Source of the DNA: a virus
Virus record (IMG/VR): IMGVR_UViG_3300044641_008938
Location: 1-22,953 of that record
Direction: 5' to 3' (one strand)
Length of the DNA stretch: 22,953 nt
Made by a program: the position numbers and the translations under genes. The notes under the pieces were generated by a model. It did no database searches. It had not been told where the DNA came from and saw only the letters and a program-made list of their open reading frames with translations. Below, piece by piece: positions 3,807 through 21,866 of the stretch (the first letter of the stretch is position 1; each line of letters starts with the position of its first letter).

Positions 3807-4463
3807 ATGGACACCTACAAAGCAACCAATACGAAGAACGGCAAGTTCTACATCGGTAGCACGACCAATTTTGAGCGTCGTAAAAAAGGGCACCTAAGGT
3901 CAAGAGAAAATTACCCTTTTCAGAACGCTCTCCGAAAGAACCCTGAGGTATTTGAGTGGGAGTGTTGGACAGACGAGTATAATGAGCCCATACTTGAGCA
4001 AGCACTACTGGACATGTGGTTCGGCAAGGAGTGCTGCTATAATCTAAACCCCTCTGCACAACACCCCCCTCGCGACCCGGATGGTATGCGGAAGGGGGGC
4101 GAGAGCGCCGGTAAAATCGCTAAAGAAAGAGGTCAAATACAGCAGTTAGGAAGAACAGGTGGCCAAGGAAAGAAGAACGTAGAGTCAGGCCTACTAAAAC
4201 GGATTGCGCCCCTAGGCGCAGCAGCATTAAGTACCGAGCAGCGCTCTTGTGCAGGAAAGCGCGGTGGTACAACTCAGGGGAATAGAAATGTGGCCTCAGG
4301 CTTACTTGATTCGATAAGAACCCAGGAAGGGTGCAGAAGGGGAGGAGAGACGACGGGAAACAAACCTTATTGGACGGACGGTAAGAAAAATAAAAGAAGC
4401 TATGAGTGCCCAGGTGAAGGTTGGCGCCGAGGAATGACCAAAAGAAAGAAGGCAACCGGGTAA
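3807..4463 (+). CDS. GIY-YIG homing-type endonuclease with NUMOD3-like repeats
   Basis: 218 residues. The N-terminal 85 residues are a GIY-YIG nuclease: TYKATNTKNGKFYIGSTTNF, then ERRKKGHL with the expected Arg, and Glu64 (EPILEQALLD) as the likely metal-binding acid. The first motif reads Asp-Thr-Tyr rather than Gly-Ile-Tyr, a divergence that may or may not affect activity. Residues 90-190 contain Gly/Lys-rich NUMOD3-like DNA-binding repeats, including two near copies of the pattern QG(K/N)xNVxSGLL. The end (SYECPGEGWRRGM) is a tail motif I associate with phage GIY-YIG and HNH proteins. Base composition looks more A-rich than the flanking structural genes. It sits between two structural units and its last codon and stop overlap the next promoter-like motif. 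Confidence 0.88.
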   Translation: MDTYKATNTKNGKFYIGSTTNFERRKKGHLRSRENYPFQNALRKNPEVFEWECWTDEYNEPILEQALLDMWFGKECCYNLNPSAQHPPRDPDGMRKGGESAGKIAKERGQIQQLGRTGGQGKKNVESGLLKRIAPLGAAALSTEQRSCAGKRGGTTQGNRNVASGLLDSIRTQEGCRRGGETTGNKPYWTDGKKNKRSYECPGEGWRRGMTKRKKATG

Positions 4464-14256: not shown

Positions 14257-14787
14257 ATGAAGCACAGTCACCACATAAAACCCAGATATGAGGGTGGTTC
14301 AGACGACCCTGAAAACCTTGTGGAGCTGACCCCCACTCAACACGCAATGTGGCACTATGCCGAATGGTTCAGAAAAAATAATCTAGAAGATTATTTGGCA
14401 TGGAAGGGTCTTGTTGGTCACATAGGGAAAGAAGACATCCTCCTGGAAATAGCACTGGAAAATGGAAGAAAACTTCAAGAGTGGTTAAAAAACAATCCGG
14501 TAAAGAGAGCCAAGTCGTCGGAAACCAAGAAGAAAATCTCCCAATCAATGGTTAAATATAGGCGAGAAAAGGATATACCCCGATTGCCTCCTCCGGTCGG
14601 AAGTAGAGGGATTAGGGGGAGAAAACCAAAACCGGTTGAACTTACCTCCCCGTGCGAAAATTTTGCCCTGGTGTTTGAGTCTGCTGTAAAAGCAGGGGAA
14701 TGCCTAAACCTGAACCCCAGCGCCATTACAAAATGTGCCAGAGGTGTGTGGACCAACACGGGCGGTTGGAGAGTTCGTTACATTTAG
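14257..14787 (+). CDS. HNH homing-type endonuclease with NUMOD3/NUMOD1-like modules
   Basis: 176 residues. The HNH nuclease begins at once: MKHSHHIKPRYEGGSDDPEN supplies His5-His6, followed by NLVELTPTQHAMWHY with the Asn and later His of the motif. Residues about 85-105 (SSETKKKISQSMVKYRR) match a NUMOD3-type DNA-binding repeat. Residues about 130-176 (FALVFESAVKAGECLNLNPS, then ITKCARG and a final GGWRVRYI) match a NUMOD1/IENR1-like helix-turn-helix. The A-rich codon use differs from the neighbouring terminase gene, supporting mobility. HNH proteins beside TerL can assist packaging in other phages, but this modular design fits a freestanding homing endonuclease better. No intron or intein boundaries were seen. 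Confidence 0.88.
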   Translation: MKHSHHIKPRYEGGSDDPENLVELTPTQHAMWHYAEWFRKNNLEDYLAWKGLVGHIGKEDILLEIALENGRKLQEWLKNNPVKRAKSSETKKKISQSMVKYRREKDIPRLPPPVGSRGIRGRKPKPVELTSPCENFALVFESAVKAGECLNLNPSAITKCARGVWTNTGGWRVRYI

Positions 14788-15120: not shown

Positions 15121-15936
15121 ATGCCCGATTCTATTTCTCAAGGGGGTGATTTGCATGTAGAGCTTATCGGACACGAAGCGTATGATCTACCCACAGTTGT
15201 CAATTTATTTAACATGCTCACCTCCAAGGATAAGCGCAAGAACCGTCGCGCTGAAGCTGCCCAGATGTTAGAGAACGCCTACCACAAAGGTATGGACGTT
15301 CAGCCACCCAAGTTCCTTACCTGGCGACAGGAAGAACTCTGGAACTGCTTTCAAAGGAACACCGTAACCCTGGCTCATGGTTGCGCCGGAACCGGTAAGA
15401 CCCTCATTGCTCTCCATTATGGACTTTTCGGAGTCGCCCAAGGCACTTTCGACAAGGTCTATTATGTCCGTAGCGACGTAGGTGTCGAATTCCAACGTGG
15501 ACGTGGTGCTTTACCTGGCGACCTTTCTGAAAAAATCGCTCCCCTCATTGCTCCAGTTTTAGACAATCTACCTTGCATTATGCGCTCCCAGGGCGCAGCA
15601 GAATACCTCCTCAACAAGAAAATCATTGAGCCGGTGCTTCTGGAAGACATCCGTGGCCGCTCACTGAACGAAGCCTTCATCATCGTCGATGAGTCGCAGA
15701 ACTTCCTGCCCTCGCACATCAAAACTTGCCTGTCTCGTGTAGGTAAGGACTCTAAGATCTGCCTCATCGGTGATACGAAACAGACGGACCTTGAAGTGTT
15801 CCGTCGGGAGAATGGACTTGTCGATGCCATTCACCGCCTGCGCCAACTCTCTGAAGTAGGTGTGGTGGAGTTCCACAAAGAAGACATCGTGCGCAACTCC
15901 GTTATCGCACACATTTTAGACCGCTACGACGACTGA
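15121..15936 (+). CDS. phoH: PhoH-like ATPase
   Basis: 271 residues. Walker A is GCAGTGKT (87-94), Walker B is AFIIVDESQN (185-194), and the sensor-like LIGDTKQTD lies at 215-223, all standard for the PhoH family. The preceding segment LTWRQEELWNCFQRNTVTLA matches the usual approach to the P-loop; an N-terminal extension of about 65 residues carries no known domain. PhoH is common in marine phages, including cyanophages; proposed roles are in RNA metabolism and response to phosphate stress, but its activity is not settled. Its stop overlaps the next ATG by one base (TGATG), so the two are likely translated together. Confidence 0.93.
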   Translation: MPDSISQGGDLHVELIGHEAYDLPTVVNLFNMLTSKDKRKNRRAEAAQMLENAYHKGMDVQPPKFLTWRQEELWNCFQRNTVTLAHGCAGTGKTLIALHYGLFGVAQGTFDKVYYVRSDVGVEFQRGRGALPGDLSEKIAPLIAPVLDNLPCIMRSQGAAEYLLNKKIIEPVLLEDIRGRSLNEAFIIVDESQNFLPSHIKTCLSRVGKDSKICLIGDTKQTDLEVFRRENGLVDAIHRLRQLSEVGVVEFHKEDIVRNSVIAHILDRYDD

Positions 15937-17354
15937 TGGCAACAAAGGGACCTATGACAACCGCTACCAAAGGTAAATCGGGAGCCATGGGTTCCGCCAC
16001 AGGGAGGCGGCATGCTCCAACCGCGAGTCAGGTTGAGCGAGCCAAACGTCAAGCCGTGGGGGGGAGCAGGAAAAGATGCACCCGCGGTAAGAACTGCTCT
16101 GCTGCCTGCATCTCTGCCAATAAGGTCTGCCTGGTAACCTTTCCAACCCCGGTCCAGGACCCCATTCGCAGGGTGCGGGACTTCCTGAGACAGAAGAATA
16201 ACATTCAACCCGGCAGTATTCAAGACAGGCGCATTAATGCAGCCATTGACAAGATTGTCCCCGTAATCAAGGTGGCGGCAGAAGGCAAGCATGCCACTCC
16301 AAAAACAGGTAAAATGGAGAAGCCTGAAGTCGAGTGGAAGAGGGACGCCAAGCGAGCAGAGCGTCCCGCCCTACCGTGGAACGAAATTCAAGGATTAAAG
16401 AAAAGGAAGGATCTGCTCTCTCAGGCTGAGGTGGAGAGGGAGGCAATGAGAGCCCTTCACCGAGACGCCACCTCTCGCGGTCTGCGTCTCCCACGCGCAG
16501 AGTTGGAGATGATCTACGAGGTTTTACCAAAAAATGTTCAAACATCTCTCGCGAAGTCTGGAAGAGCGGGAACCGATCAGTGGTATGCTGGAAAGGATGA
16601 CCAAGGCAAGGCAACTTTCTCCAAGGGTGCTGGAAAAGAGAGAGCTCTGGCCGTTCTGGATCTCTGGTTCAGGCAAGGGGGCACAGACGCCTATCAAGGC
16701 CGTGGAAGCAAGATGTGGGCACCACCGGATCTGAGTGTTGAGCACATTATCCCCCTATCCAAAGGCGGCGTTGACGCCCCCTCCAACTGGGTTCTCATCC
16801 GCAGGGGCACAAACCTGGAGCGCCAATCCCAAGGTCTCGGCAAGTGGATCGACAAGCTGCCGAGTTCACGCGAAGAGTATAAAACATATGTGGGCAACTA
16901 CGCCTCAAATCGTCGCAAGACACGCACCAAAAAAGCTGCCGCTGCGTTGATTAACCCCAAGCAACTCTCGGATAAAGAGGTGTTCGGGCAGAGTGCACGA
17001 GGGCTTGCATTGCTATTCCGCGCTGAAAACGGTAATAAAACTCCCGGAACTTTCACAAAGGAGTGGCTCGGGATCAAGGACACCAGCACACGGACAGGAA
17101 ACTCCGGGCCTCCGGTCCCATTCGCAAAAGGTCTGGGCCTCATCGCAAAAACTCAAGGCCTCCCTGCTGCTCGCGATGTCGGCAATCGGATGAAAACCAT
17201 CTGGAACAAAAACTGGAAACAGGACGGAAAACTAAGCAAGCAGCAAGCTTTCCAGCAGATGATGTCCGAGATGAAGTCCTCACTATCGGCAGAACAGTTT
17301 AATATGTTTTCTCCCGCTGCGATGAAGTGGGCCAACACCAACGGTTTCCTCTGA
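15936..17354 (+). CDS. Protein with N-terminal Cys cluster and internal HNH motif
   Basis: 472 residues. The first 45 residues are basic and disordered, followed by a compact Cys cluster C-x5-C-x3-C-x6-C (Cys48, 54, 58, 65; CTRGKNCSAACISANKVC), a pattern I associate with phage head-region proteins. Residues about 85-230 are Lys/Arg-rich helices. An HNH motif lies at about 265-300: SVEHIIPLSKGGVDAPSNWV, with His270 and Asn284 as expected. The final 170 residues are helical with a hydrophobic end (NMFSPAAMKWANTNGFL). No NUMOD module is present, and it is translationally coupled to PhoH and to the next gene, so unlike the other endonucleases it looks like a resident gene. It could act in DNA processing during packaging; that is inference. 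Confidence 0.78.
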   Translation: MATKGPMTTATKGKSGAMGSATGRRHAPTASQVERAKRQAVGGSRKRCTRGKNCSAACISANKVCLVTFPTPVQDPIRRVRDFLRQKNNIQPGSIQDRRINAAIDKIVPVIKVAAEGKHATPKTGKMEKPEVEWKRDAKRAERPALPWNEIQGLKKRKDLLSQAEVEREAMRALHRDATSRGLRLPRAELEMIYEVLPKNVQTSLAKSGRAGTDQWYAGKDDQGKATFSKGAGKERALAVLDLWFRQGGTDAYQGRGSKMWAPPDLSVEHIIPLSKGGVDAPSNWVLIRRGTNLERQSQGLGKWIDKLPSSREEYKTYVGNYASNRRKTRTKKAAAALINPKQLSDKEVFGQSARGLALLFRAENGNKTPGTFTKEWLGIKDTSTRTGNSGPPVPFAKGLGLIAKTQGLPAARDVGNRMKTIWNKNWKQDGKLSKQQAFQQMMSEMKSSLSAEQFNMFSPAAMKWANTNGFL

Positions 17355-17686
17355 TGAGAAAGACTACAGAGTTTAGACGCCCAGAGCGTAGTGAAATTGA
17401 GAGCCGCCTACCCGCAGGAATTCTCTCTGACCCTCAAGCCCTTGGCGTTTGGAACATGATGCTTCGCGGGGGAGACCCTTCAGACATCGCCCACACCTAC
17501 CGCTCTTTTCGGGACAGCAGCCATTGCACTGTCCCTCGTGAGCATCTGCGATCCATGCGGGATGCAATGATTACCTCCATGCGTGAGGCCAATCGAAAAG
17601 ACCCAAACCCCCGGAAAGAGAAGAAGAAAGGTGTGCATTACAATTCCATGCCAGATGGCTGGATGCCCACAAGGAAAGGAGCTTGA
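17354..17686 (+). CDS. Small basic protein of unknown function
   Basis: 110 residues. The ATG overlaps the previous TGA by one base; an upstream in-frame ATG at 17327 would overlap the 472-residue gene by more and is not preferred. Composition is rich in Arg, Ser and Met, with a predicted helical core (DPQALGVWNMMLRGGDPSDI, then ahead to REHLRSMRDAMITSMREANR) and a Lys-rich tail (NPRKEKKKGVHYN). It could bind nucleic acid. No recognised family. Confidence 0.7.
   Translation: MRKTTEFRRPERSEIESRLPAGILSDPQALGVWNMMLRGGDPSDIAHTYRSFRDSSHCTVPREHLRSMRDAMITSMREANRKDPNPRKEKKKGVHYNSMPDGWMPTRKGA
17671..17681 (+). promoter_or_regulatory. Strong Shine-Dalgarno for the gene at 17689
   Basis: AAGGAAAGGAG ends seven bases before the ATG at 17689. 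It decides between that ATG and the in-frame TTG at 17683, which would sit only one base from the site. It is the strongest ribosome-binding site in the window. Confidence 0.75.
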
Positions 17687-19381: not shown

Positions 19382-19660
19382 ATGGGTGTTGAAACACTGG
19401 TGGCAATCGTTGCCTCCCTGGTAACAACAATGAGCGGTCTAGGGTGGGTCATTGATCGAAACGGGCGTAGAACTGACATACGGTTTGACACCGTTATCGC
19501 ACACATGTCAAAAGTAGAAAAAATGCTTAACGACATGCGAGCAGAGATGCCGATTAAGTACACCCTCAGGGAAGACCACATTCGCCTATCTGAAAAGGTT
19601 GAGCGAATCGAAACCGACATCCTGATCTGGAAGCACAAGGAGAGACCCACTAATGATTGA
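19382..19660 (+). CDS. Small membrane-anchored coiled-coil protein
   Basis: 92 residues. Residues 3-22 (VETLVAIVASLVTTMSGLGW) form one predicted membrane segment; the rest is a charged helix with heptad-like spacing, including DMRAEMPIKYTLREDHIRLS. This N-terminal anchor plus coiled coil is seen in small phage proteins close to lysis or tail genes, so a holin-accessory or spanin-like role is possible but unproven. GGAG lies five bases before the ATG. It overlaps the next gene by eight bases. Confidence 0.7.
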   Translation: MGVETLVAIVASLVTTMSGLGWVIDRNGRRTDIRFDTVIAHMSKVEKMLNDMRAEMPIKYTLREDHIRLSEKVERIETDILIWKHKERPTND

Positions 19661-20228
19661 AGATTACGACTGGGGCAGGCTGAGCGGGATGTATCCGGCT
19701 GAGTTTGTTGAAAAGATGAAAGGACTTGATGGGAAAGCCTGTTGGGATGGTTACAAGCTAGCAGGCACAAAGAAAAAAGGCGGTAAGAACGTTGACGATT
19801 GTGTTAAAATAAAGAAAGACGCTGAGCATGGCGAAGGCGACGTTGCCACTGCGGAAATGACTCCAAACTATTTGCCGAAAGAACCTGGCAAAGGCGACGA
19901 GAAGAACCCTCAAATGGGTGAACAAAAAATCCGCATGCCTCGCATGGAGGAGATTGTAAAGTCCTCCAACCGTAACGGCCATCTGGCAATGGCAGCTGCT
20001 CCCAACTATGCGGAAACCGAAGATTTTCATGATGCGTTCCAGTCAATGGAACCTAATGGCGGTATGGCAATCAACCAGCTTCGCGTAATGCGCGAAAAAA
20101 TTGACATCATGCTGGGAATGCTTTATCCCGACGACAACCTGGAGCCTTGGATGGCAACAAAACTAACAATGAGTGCTCAGAACCTGGCTTCTGTGGCCGA
20201 CTACATGCGTTTCGGAGCAGAACTGTGA
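19653..20228 (+). CDS. Conserved-looking phage protein, GKACWxGYK type, function unknown
   Basis: 191 residues, with AAGGAG ten bases before the ATG. Residues about 28-50 (DGKACWDGYKLAGTKKKGGK, then NVDDCVKI) match a short motif that recurs in structural and core proteins of cyanophages. The C-terminal region (DNLEPWMATKLTMSAQNLAS, then VADYMRF) resembles another recurrent phage helix of the form EPWxxSKIxxAxDYxxxVxDY. The middle is Lys/Glu/Pro-rich linker. The resemblance points to a head or packaging-associated protein, but the role is unknown. Its TGA overlaps the GTG of the next small gene. Confidence 0.7.
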   Translation: MIEDYDWGRLSGMYPAEFVEKMKGLDGKACWDGYKLAGTKKKGGKNVDDCVKIKKDAEHGEGDVATAEMTPNYLPKEPGKGDEKNPQMGEQKIRMPRMEEIVKSSNRNGHLAMAAAPNYAETEDFHDAFQSMEPNGGMAINQLRVMREKIDIMLGMLYPDDNLEPWMATKLTMSAQNLASVADYMRFGAEL

Positions 20229-20359
20229 ACCCCGAACTTCACCACAAGTGGAATGCCGAGCGCACTCCGGACAGAGAAGCAAGCAAAGAAGGCGTGGTTG
20301 TCCTGAAAGAGGACTTAGCCAAAAACAAAGTAACCCTGAAGCAGAACAAACCGAGGTAA
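20225..20359 (+). CDS. Tiny protein, GTG start, overlapping its neighbour
   Basis: 44 residues. The GTG at 20225 overlaps the previous TGA (GTGA), and CGGAG lies seven bases upstream, so it is translationally coupled; a longer frame from 20147 would be embedded in the previous gene and is not preferred. The sequence is basic and acidic with no Cys (MNPELHHKWNAERTPDREAS, then a Lys-rich end). The next gene starts two bases after its stop. Function unknown. Confidence 0.62.
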   Translation: MNPELHHKWNAERTPDREASKEGVVVLKEDLAKNKVTLKQNKPR

Positions 20360-20361
20360 CC

Positions 20362-20727
20362 ATGTTTGGCGATTTTCCAGAAGACTTGCTAGAACAGTTC
20401 AAACGGGATTACGCTGAGCGTCAAGCAATGGCCATTGGCTACCCTCAGCCCTCCTTCATTGAGAAGGGGGATCTCAAGTGTAACTCCCCCAAGGCTGACC
20501 CGGTCGGTGACAGCACAACCGGTAAATCCCATGTGGTGAAAGCTTGCTCTGGTGGCCAGGAAAAACTCATTCGATTTGGTCAGCGAGGTGTGAAAGGGTC
20601 CCCGAAGAAGGAGGGTGAGTCCGAAGCCTACCGCAGTCGACGAGAGAGATTCAAAACTCGGCATGCAAAAAACATTGCCAAAGGAAAAATGAGCGCAGCA
20701 TACTGGTCTAATCGTACGAAGTGGTGA
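20362..20727 (+). CDS. Conserved small phage protein, KMSAAYWSNRTKW type
   Basis: 121 residues, with GAGG five bases before the ATG; the frame is open upstream, but that portion overlaps earlier genes. The N-terminal 35 residues are acidic (MFGDFPEDLLEQFKRDYAER). The C-terminal 60 residues carry a widespread small-protein signature: EKLIRFGQRGVKGSPKKEGE, then RSRRERFKTRHAKNIAKGKM and AAYWSNRTKW. I have seen this signature in unrelated phages without a known function. The basic end may bind nucleic acid. It is the last gene of its unit. Confidence 0.78.
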   Translation: MFGDFPEDLLEQFKRDYAERQAMAIGYPQPSFIEKGDLKCNSPKADPVGDSTTGKSHVVKACSGGQEKLIRFGQRGVKGSPKKEGESEAYRSRRERFKTRHAKNIAKGKMSAAYWSNRTKW

Positions 20728-20769: not shown

Positions 20770-21261
20770 ATGCAAGTTACCAAAGGGCCTGACGGACGAT
20801 ACTATAAACCTTGCCCAGAGTGTGGAGAAACACAAAGCTACCTCCGTGCTTGCTATGCCAGAGAATCTCTCCGCCTAAGTAAAGCGTGTAAAAAATGCAG
20901 TAACCGAAAAACAGACAATTCCCATCGTGGGTGGTACAGAGGTATTAGAATTAGTTGGTTCAACAAGTTTAGAGTCTGTGCGGAAACTCGTGGAAAAGTT
21001 TATAACATTTCTCTCGACGATGTTGCCGATGCCCATGAAAAACAAGGTGGTCGATGTGCTCTCACGGGGTGGGACATAACCTTCCCGGAAATTGGTCATC
21101 CCTCCAACCTCAATTGCAGCATCGATCGCATCGACAACTCCCGTGGATACGAGCCCGATAACATCCAACTCATTGACGGCCGGGTAAATATGATGAAGGG
21201 GAAGTACTCCCAAGAACTTTTCAAAGAAGTCTGCAAAGCAGTTGCAGATAACCTGGGGTAA
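20770..21261 (+). CDS. HNH endonuclease with zinc-ribbon-like N-terminus
   Basis: 163 residues. Two Cys pairs (CPEC at 15-18 and CKKC at 40-43) form a likely zinc site. The nuclease core follows: GGRCALTGWDITF (93-105), SIDRIDNSRGYEPDNIQLID (117-136) and RVNMMKGKYS (138-147), with the DRID-type HNH core in place of the usual first His and Asn residues at 131 and 140. Such proteins act as freestanding homing nucleases. It is flanked on both sides by promoter-like motifs, and its last Gly codon and TAA lie inside the downstream copy. No NUMOD module is present. Whether it is active cannot be told. Confidence 0.87.
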   Translation: MQVTKGPDGRYYKPCPECGETQSYLRACYARESLRLSKACKKCSNRKTDNSHRGWYRGIRISWFNKFRVCAETRGKVYNISLDDVADAHEKQGGRCALTGWDITFPEIGHPSNLNCSIDRIDNSRGYEPDNIQLIDGRVNMMKGKYSQELFKEVCKAVADNLG

Positions 21262-21290: not shown

Positions 21291-21812
21291 ATGCGTAAAG
21301 ATTCCATCGATAACAGTGCTCTTGAGAAAGCATACCTGATCTTCAAAGAGCACGGTCACCAAATCGTCGACTATGACTTTTCGCACCCGCCTACTGACTA
21401 TAAGCGGAATACTGTAGAAGAGCCCGAAGTCACAAGCAAACTGCGTGACGCCTTCAATGAGCTGCTGCCTGCCAATGTAATGAATGGCGAGCGCTACGAG
21501 GACCTGGAAAAGCAAGCTCATGCTCTAAACCTCCGCATCGACCAGCAACAAGACAAGCTGCGTGTGTGCCGCATGCGGGGGAACTTCACCGAGTTTCACC
21601 GGTGTATGCAGGAAATGCAAGACATGATCAAAGAGAAGGAGCGCCTGGATGCCAAGATGGCGGTAGCTGCTCCCGGCGGTAACGCGGGTCAGAAGCAAGT
21701 GGAAGACTACAACCGCACCTACGAGCAAGAAAGTTCATACTCGGAAATGGAAGACCTTGGCGCTCAGATTGCCGCCCTCGAGGAGATGCTGCAAGACTAC
21801 TTGGAGCAATGA
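21291..21812 (+). CDS. Coiled-coil protein of unknown function
   Basis: 173 residues. The N-terminal 75 residues mix hydrophobic and acidic residues (LEKAYLIFKEHGHQIVDYDF, then PEVTSKLRDAFNELLP). From about residue 82 to 125 a charged, heptad-like helix is clear (YEDLEKQAHALNLRIDQQQD and onwards to EMQDMIKEKERLDAKM). After a Gly/Ala linker the protein ends in another short coiled coil (EMEDLGAQIAALEEMLQDYL). It is a single-gene unit between two promoter-like motifs. A structural or assembly role is plausible; no family recognised. Confidence 0.7.
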   Translation: MRKDSIDNSALEKAYLIFKEHGHQIVDYDFSHPPTDYKRNTVEEPEVTSKLRDAFNELLPANVMNGERYEDLEKQAHALNLRIDQQQDKLRVCRMRGNFTEFHRCMQEMQDMIKEKERLDAKMAVAAPGGNAGQKQVEDYNRTYEQESSYSEMEDLGAQIAALEEMLQDYLEQ

Positions 21813-21822
21813 GGGTAAGAGT
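21813..21822 (+). promoter_or_regulatory. Promoter-like motif, GGGTAAGAGT variant with long leader
   Basis: GGGTAAGAGT begins directly after the TGA of the previous gene and lies 54 bases before the ATG at 21867. The extra distance is filled by the hairpin at 21820-21853. Confidence 0.45.
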
Positions 21823-21853
21823 GTAGCAACGTGTCTTTACACGGGCTACCACT
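21820..21853 (+). other. Leader hairpin upstream of the large structural gene
   Basis: A two-part stem is visible: AGTG-TAGC pairs with GCTA-C-CACT with one bulged base, and inside it CGTGT pairs perfectly with ACACG around a CTTT loop. No T-tract follows directly, so termination is unlikely. It ends 13 bases before the ATG and occupies most of the leader, suggesting a role in mRNA stability or translation control. Confidence 0.6.
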
Positions 21854-21866
21854 CGCTCTTTAGCAT

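Follow-up and report, generated by a model that had tools for sequence, protein, structure and literature searches.

The window analysed here, a 22,953-base IMG/VR fragment of a cyanophage-like virus, contains a gene for a 472-residue protein lying between a PhoH gene and a small conserved gene (Table 1). As the original prediction had stated, this gene overlaps each of its neighbours by a single base, with TGATG at both junctions: at 15934-15938 the PhoH stop codon (15934-15936) shares a base with the ATG at 15936, and at 17352-17356 the stop codon of the 472-residue gene (17352-17354) shares one with the ATG of the next gene at 17354. A Pfam scan agreed with the prediction that the protein lacks NUMOD modules, and the C-x5-C-x3-C-x6-C cluster (Cys 48, 54, 58 and 65) and the HNH motif are both present in the one open reading frame. 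Elsewhere in the window, three other genes are likely mobile endonuclease genes, namely those at 3807-4463 (GIY-YIG-like by eye), 14257-14787 (HNH, with a weak I-HmuI NUMOD-like match) and 20770-21261 (HNH-like by eye, with a Cys-rich start). Small proteins encoded at 19653-20228 and 20173-20727 have matches to phrog_4359, phrog_7595 and phrog_220, short motifs that terminate both large uncharacterised phage proteins and minor head or DNA pilot proteins.

Table 1. Features of the PhoH-associated slot and of the second slot in the window
Feature	Position	Strand	Evidence
PhoH gene, left slot border	15121..15936	+	Pfam PhoH, 1.5e-48; order kept in relatives
Tagged HNH protein, 472 aa	15936..17354	+	ORF list; 26 relatives aligned
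Four-Cys tag, C48-C54-C58-C65	16077..16130	+	27/27 of the close family; also on unrelated enzymes
HNH (beta-beta-alpha metal) core, residues 264-297	16725..16826	+	Pfam; PDB profile match to Cas9 HNH; model
Small conserved gene, right slot border	17354..17686	+	77 loci found via the right gene alone
Second-slot site	21813..21866		Empty in window; ORF borders; in relatives, 8 kinase-like and 1 other

Analysis of the HNH region, which contains SVEHIIPLSKGG with E269-H270 (codons at 16740-16745), N284 (16785-16787) and N293 (16812-16814), revealed a recognisable nuclease core. Pfam HNH, HNH_4 and HNH_5 matched residues 264-297 with E-values of 0.0018-0.0098, every one under its curated cut-off (18.8 bits versus 21.4 for HNH and 18.1 versus 22 for HNH_4), and the family profile matched the HNH domain of Cas9 in the PDB (E 5.3e-4). 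The AlphaFold model of the window protein (mean pLDDT 78.5) placed a strand at 266-270, a second strand at 285-289 and a helix at 290-296, the beta-beta-alpha order, with the expected D/E-H followed by N and N/H on strand, strand and helix; a PDB fold search gave no match with E < 0.001. In the profile match, E269, H270, N284 and N293 fall opposite D839, H840, N854 and N863 of Cas9. The likeness to Cas9 is limited to the HNH part, however, and the window protein contains no RuvC, guide-RNA or PAM parts, so that identity with Cas9 was rejected.

Alignment of the window protein with 26 relatives (loci L094 upward, BLAST E < 1e-40; a few clipped by contig ends and some near-identical) showed that the four Cys residues are all kept in 27 of 27 sequences. 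E269, H270 and N284 were kept in all 26 sequences long enough to include them, indicating that the HNH core is not degenerate. Position 293, Asn in the window protein, was N in nine of these 26 sequences and Q in 17, and the predicted cutting activity may therefore vary among relatives. Relatives at 30-64% identity retain both the tag and the HNH core, and the core is common to three phage lineages; the HNH part is thus retained in homologues, and neither its loss or degeneration nor its recent insertion, the findings that the original prediction had named as telling against it, was seen.

The four cysteines, together with the next stretch of about 20 residues, make up a shared N-terminal module, and residues 48-65 of the window protein fit the pattern C-x2-G-K-x-C-x3-C-I-x5-C that we propose for a family of four-Cys-tagged cargo. 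The exact Cys spacing occurred five times in the six-frame ORF set of cyanophage S-CBWM1, compared to a mean of 0.04 in shuffled sequences, and 511 other Cys spacings tried there totalled 14. A search of DNA for C-x2-G-K-x-C-G-x2-C-I, a pattern that excludes the fourth Cys, identified 70 stretches in viral contigs and seven in the cellular genome collection. With a last gap of 4-9 residues permitted, the four-Cys motif was in frame in 69 of the 70 viral stretches (the exception being L064) and in none of the seven cellular stretches, and reversed-order codons, used as a control, gave no matches in viral contigs. Among 63 distinct sequence windows from elsewhere, C, G, K, C, C and C were kept in every one and I in 62; the search pattern itself had fixed G, K and the first three Cys, whereas the fourth Cys, which was free, lay exactly at the x6 spacing in all 63. 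A looser pattern yielded 60 matches in 20 viral records selected because they bear the tag, with none for the mirrored control, and 20 matches in eight of 12 records (one also among the 20), again with none for the control; one 47-kb record had eight tag matches.

The four-Cys module is undescribed within the libraries and literature searched here. A tblastn search of 50,697 phage records with the window tag peptide found S-CBWM1 only (two records of one phage), comparison of 29 tag peptides with PHROGs, Pfam, NCBIfam and the PDB found no family matching more than three of the 29, and no tag of this kind was found in the titles and abstract openings searched. The best single match, Pfam PDGF/VEGF (E 5.5e-4, one of the 29), was taken as chance. 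In the AlphaFold model of the window protein, residues 1-29 and 37-73, including the Cys cluster, had pLDDT values below 50, as did the tag region (residues 1-41) of S-CBWM1 gp113, the kinase part of which was modelled confidently. Both models thus predict an unstructured tag before well-folded enzyme parts.

The original prediction had suggested a search for the Cys cluster without HNH, and the cluster was indeed found on kinase-like, HExxH, zeta-like and J-domain proteins. Five S-CBWM1 proteins carry the tag near the N-terminus; gp113, gp161 and gp162 are annotated as RIO-, ChoK- and APH-like kinases, gp106 and gp174 are two different HNH proteins, and a further kinase, gp173, is untagged. 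The GenBank starts of gp113 (L010) and gp161 (L011) fall inside the tag, and in each case an upstream open frame spans the whole of it. Overall, 94 tag hits represented 80 distinct proteins, with the tag starting no more than 60 residues from the protein start in 75 of them. When compared with the tag excluded, the 80 proteins formed 17 groups (39, 16, 5, 4, 3, 2 and 11 singletons), the largest of which is possibly held together in part by the residues that directly follow the tag. Sorted by motif, the 68 complete tagged proteins comprised 22 kinase-like, 14 HNH, seven HExxH, one zeta-like P-loop, one J-domain and 23 other proteins. These results show that the four cysteines form a modular tag at the N-terminus of unrelated enzymes, rather than part of one fold that also contains the HNH motif.

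Pfam analysis of 18 tagged representatives identified zeta toxin (7.9e-22), DnaJ (7.7e-15), kinase families and HNH_4. Among the HExxH proteins, matches to a metalloprotease-type family were weak or absent, and several of the 18 had no Pfam match. The L046 protein gives the impression of being ADP-ribosyltransferase-like, and Pfam found nothing in it. One long record (L051, IMG/VR 3300041964_000083, 153,952 bases) has the tag at six places. Two of the proteins concerned are a J-domain protein and an HExxH protein that has DUF6496- and LPD1-like parts and bears the tag at residue 154.

Relatives of the locus were located via the gene right of the slot, to avoid choosing them by tag or HNH, giving 77 loci and, after removal of 19 duplicates, 58 distinct loci. 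A tagged HNH gene was present between PhoH and the right gene in 35 of the 58 (26 identified by script, L191 and L201 (both with D-H-R) and L184 (variant GTNC) by reading, and six on re-examination of two-gene slots). The slot held a tagged HExxH gene at three loci, an HExxH gene clipped at its 5' end at one, a tagged kinase gene at one, mobile-type HNH genes at two (L180 and L222) and a protein with another Cys motif at one, and was empty at 15 (14 plus L219). At the empty sites PhoH is joined directly to the right gene, for example by CTAATG in L171, in which PhoH and the terminase are 91.0% and 85.2% identical to those of the window. In L013 these two proteins are 97.8% and 89.5% identical to their window counterparts, and the slot protein aligns to the window protein over about 107 residues around the tag only. 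The window also has a second slot, bounded by the genes at 21291 and 21867, with nothing in it; pooled over all loci, this slot held eight tagged kinases and one other gene. The records of L160, L161, L166 and L202, in which the first slot is empty, contained no tag match at all. In sum, tagged genes occupy exchangeable gene slots, and the proposal that the 472-residue gene is a fixed resident does not hold, with the slot empty at 15 of 58 loci and filled by an HExxH- or kinase-type gene at five.

Several of these slots had additional contents. A second gene lies between PhoH and the right gene in L187, L189, L190, L192, L196, L199 and L200. A recurring motif of the type FTRCVRPDGSAYGTGGKCRKG was read in this gene in L190, L192, L196, L199 and L200, and the second-gene frames of L187 and L189 have a start similar to those that bear it; this motif is possibly another address or virion module. 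The mobile-type HNH frame of L180 continues into SSIAHILDRYED, which resembles the last residues of PhoH, as if it had been inserted near the PhoH 3' end.

Searching the 50,697 phage records with the whole window protein (tblastn) matched seven records, all from cyanophages, and searches with three homologues added S-CRM01, ACG-2014f, S-B05, S-H68, RB11-B and S-TIM54. A single-sequence query of viral_contigs with the window protein found no relative, and an alignment query of IMG/VR found 67 loci. Two of the homologues, S-CBWM1 gp174 and that of S-TIM5, are annotated as virion structural proteins and also came top in a structural search of predicted viral proteins; the gp174 gene lies directly upstream of, and adjoins, the major capsid protein gene. 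Both gp174 and gp106 resemble the window protein in having the tag and the HNH core, and gp106 is also located after PhoH, but gp174 is only 22-25% identical to the window protein and gp106 can be aligned to it mainly at the tag.

Comparison of our data with published virion analyses connected both the HNH family and the tagged kinases to phage particles. In a 2023 paper (PMC10665884), mass spectrometry of S-CREM2 virions detected gp12, named there a 'CRISPR-Cas9 nuclease', with 28 unique peptides at 27.4% coverage, as well as kinase gp14 (21 peptides). S-CREM2 gp12 is homologous to the window HNH family, with a likeness that can be recognised only in the HNH region. Its gene (L093:7704-10313) is annotated as CRISPR-associated endonuclease Cas9/Csn1, and the protein has no Pfam match at all; because of this and its homology to the HNH family, the Cas9 name is probably misleading. 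The same later paper reports APH, ChoK and RIO kinases as detected in S-CBWM1 virions, names that match the three tagged kinases, and its accessible text does not name the untagged gp173. The NMNAT of S-CBWM1 is also reported in virions (PMC9602691, accessible text) and is not among the tagged proteins, indicating that some virion enzymes do without the tag. Both papers, in the text accessible, caution that highly expressed proteins may be carried over into virion samples (PMC10665884, PMC9602691).

The pairing of one leader with both HNH proteins and kinases extends beyond the four-Cys tag. In S-TIM5, an N-terminal stretch (55.6% over 54 residues, E 8e-14) is common to the HNH protein and a kinase-like protein (Pkinase, E 1.2e-4), and the kinase domain of the latter aligns with a four-Cys-tagged kinase (44% over 210 residues, E 8e-51) solely after the leaders; this S-TIM5 kinase is not labelled as a virion protein. 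In T4-like cyanophages another module is common to HNH proteins (S-B05, RN05-S, ACG-2014f and S-CREM2 gp12) and kinases (S-CREM2 gp14 and S-CRM01). A search with this module matched 13 records, made up of annotated kinase genes, the HNH gene in S-B05 and in the related S-H68 and RB11-B, and two genes that are labelled hypothetical only (S-B68 and MC09). As judged by these comparisons, three different N-terminal modules are each joined both to HNH and to kinase in cyanophage lineages. The virion-associated kinases of S-CBWM1, S-CRM01, S-TIM5 and S-CREM2 thus have the same N-terminal modules as the HNH proteins of their own lineages but a catalytic domain that is not HNH. The accessible text of PMC10665884 does not mention common leaders of virion kinases and HNH proteins, and literature searches returned a T4 review as the sole match for cyanophage capsid targeting and an unrelated match only for cyanophage virion-associated kinases with cysteine.

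This arrangement resembles that of the T4 internal head proteins (IPI, IPII, IPIII and Alt), in which a short N-terminal address precedes variable cargo. According to the accessible text of PMC9026906, T4 internal proteins are loaded into the head via a short N-terminal capsid targeting sequence (CTS), cleaved after L/I-x-E, and the cargo is ejected into the host. The T4-like homologues of the window HNH protein and the kinases have a similar leader: F-x-x-[FYLM]-[LIM]-x-E was found within the first 30 residues of six of 727 mechanical S-CREM2 ORFs, of which four (SAM hydrolase, HNH protein, kinase and cytidylyltransferase) are all in the virion table, and two, small hypothetical proteins, are absent from it. 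The motif was shaped on the beginnings of the first three of these enzymes, leaving the cytidylyltransferase as its sole independent success. With the exception of the two endolysins, every S-CREM2 virion enzyme, namely gp6, gp12, gp14 and gp154, starts with such a T4-CTS-like leader. The first 73 residues of the window protein lack [LI]-x-E, and it is therefore not a T4-type CTS protein; its leader is instead the four-Cys module, which is longer and often internal by 3-60 residues. Going by sequence, the four-Cys module occupies the place that corresponds to the CTS-like leader.

We propose, with a probability of about 0.6, that the window protein is head-loaded virion cargo, an HNH nuclease addressed by the four-Cys tag and delivered with the DNA. 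The lineage-specific tag would mark the nuclease for head loading, and the nuclease would enter the host together with phage DNA and there cut DNA, most likely that of the host or of a competitor. We infer that the tag does the loading, and likewise that the window protein is present in the virion, is ejected and cuts DNA, because the tag occurs on five S-CBWM1 proteins, three of which match by name virion-reported kinases; because it is in frame in 69 of the 70 viral stretches and none of the seven cellular ones, with controls at zero; because the S-CREM2 homologue gp12 is a virion protein and other homologues are labelled virion structural proteins; because three N-terminal modules are each joined to HNH and kinase; because a T4-CTS-like motif occurs on four S-CREM2 virion enzymes; because slot contents exchange; and because the tag is modelled as unstructured before well-folded enzyme parts in both models. 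Counting against this proposal are the untagged NMNAT in virions and the carry-over caveat, the 15 of 58 empty slots and the four such records lacking any tag, the Q at position 293 in 17 of 26 relatives, the S-TIM5 leader-bearing kinase that is not labelled as a virion protein, and the fact that the S-CBWM1 kinase detections are known via a later paper.

One possible but unlikely alternative is that the tag is a zinc- or disulfide-stabilised docking element that acts inside the infected cell, unrelated to packaging, and brings different effectors to one target, such as host polymerase, ribosome, DNA or membrane. Four clustered cysteines could plausibly bind a metal, the cargos resemble host-takeover enzymes, and not all virion enzymes require the tag; however, virions are reported to contain three of the tagged kinases, homologues carry the label of virion protein, and T4-like relatives have a capsid-targeting-like leader at the same place on the same cargos. 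The original prediction viewed the protein as a structural or packaging protein that has domesticated an HNH nuclease, its HNH fold serving as a scaffold or acting in genome packaging. The association with virions is consistent with our data, since homologues in other phages are labelled virion (structural) proteins, and the position of gp174 directly upstream of the major capsid protein gene and the Q at position 293 in most relatives also favour a head component, but a loaded cargo enzyme fits better. A structural role is improbable given that 15 of 58 relatives lack the gene and five have an HExxH- or kinase-type gene in its place, that E-H-N is kept in 26 of 26 and that S-CBWM1 has two different tagged HNH proteins.

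Many phages encode nucleases that are made after infection, and the HNH core would suit one used in the cell to break down host DNA, to take part in recombination or to exclude other phages, with a leader that affects stability only. The presence of the same leader on kinases and on HExxH, zeta-like and J-domain proteins, as well as the reported detection of the S-CREM2 homologue in virions, makes this very improbable. Least credible is a mobile or homing HNH gene, to which patchy presence and the two mobile-type HNH genes in the slot (L180 and L222) might point. The window protein shares the HNH fold with I-HmuI-type homing endonucleases but differs from them in having no NUMOD match and in a gene that overlaps each neighbour by one base; its slot is taken at other loci by tagged HExxH and kinase genes, and distant relatives retain tag and core. 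A homing element was therefore rejected, in agreement with the original prediction.

Loading addresses as such are already known in T4. At even odds, the four-Cys module represents a class of capsid-loading address that is new and has no relation to the T4 CTS, and the heads of a non-T4 cyanophage lineage would be filled through it with exchangeable injected enzymes (nuclease, kinases, HExxH, zeta-like and J-domain proteins), the cargo being swapped at fixed slots behind a constant address. Published work describes enzymes in the particles of cyanophages, and the accessible text of those reports gives no rule for their entry or recognition. If the four-Cys module is such an entry rule, environmental phage sequence would directly reveal which enzymes are delivered by virions, many hypothetical proteins could be assigned to where and when they act, and the use of a short address to carry proteins into cyanobacteria would become testable. 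The 'Cas9' reported in S-CREM2 virions would also be plainly explained, as a member of this HNH family that resembles no CRISPR nuclease beyond that domain.
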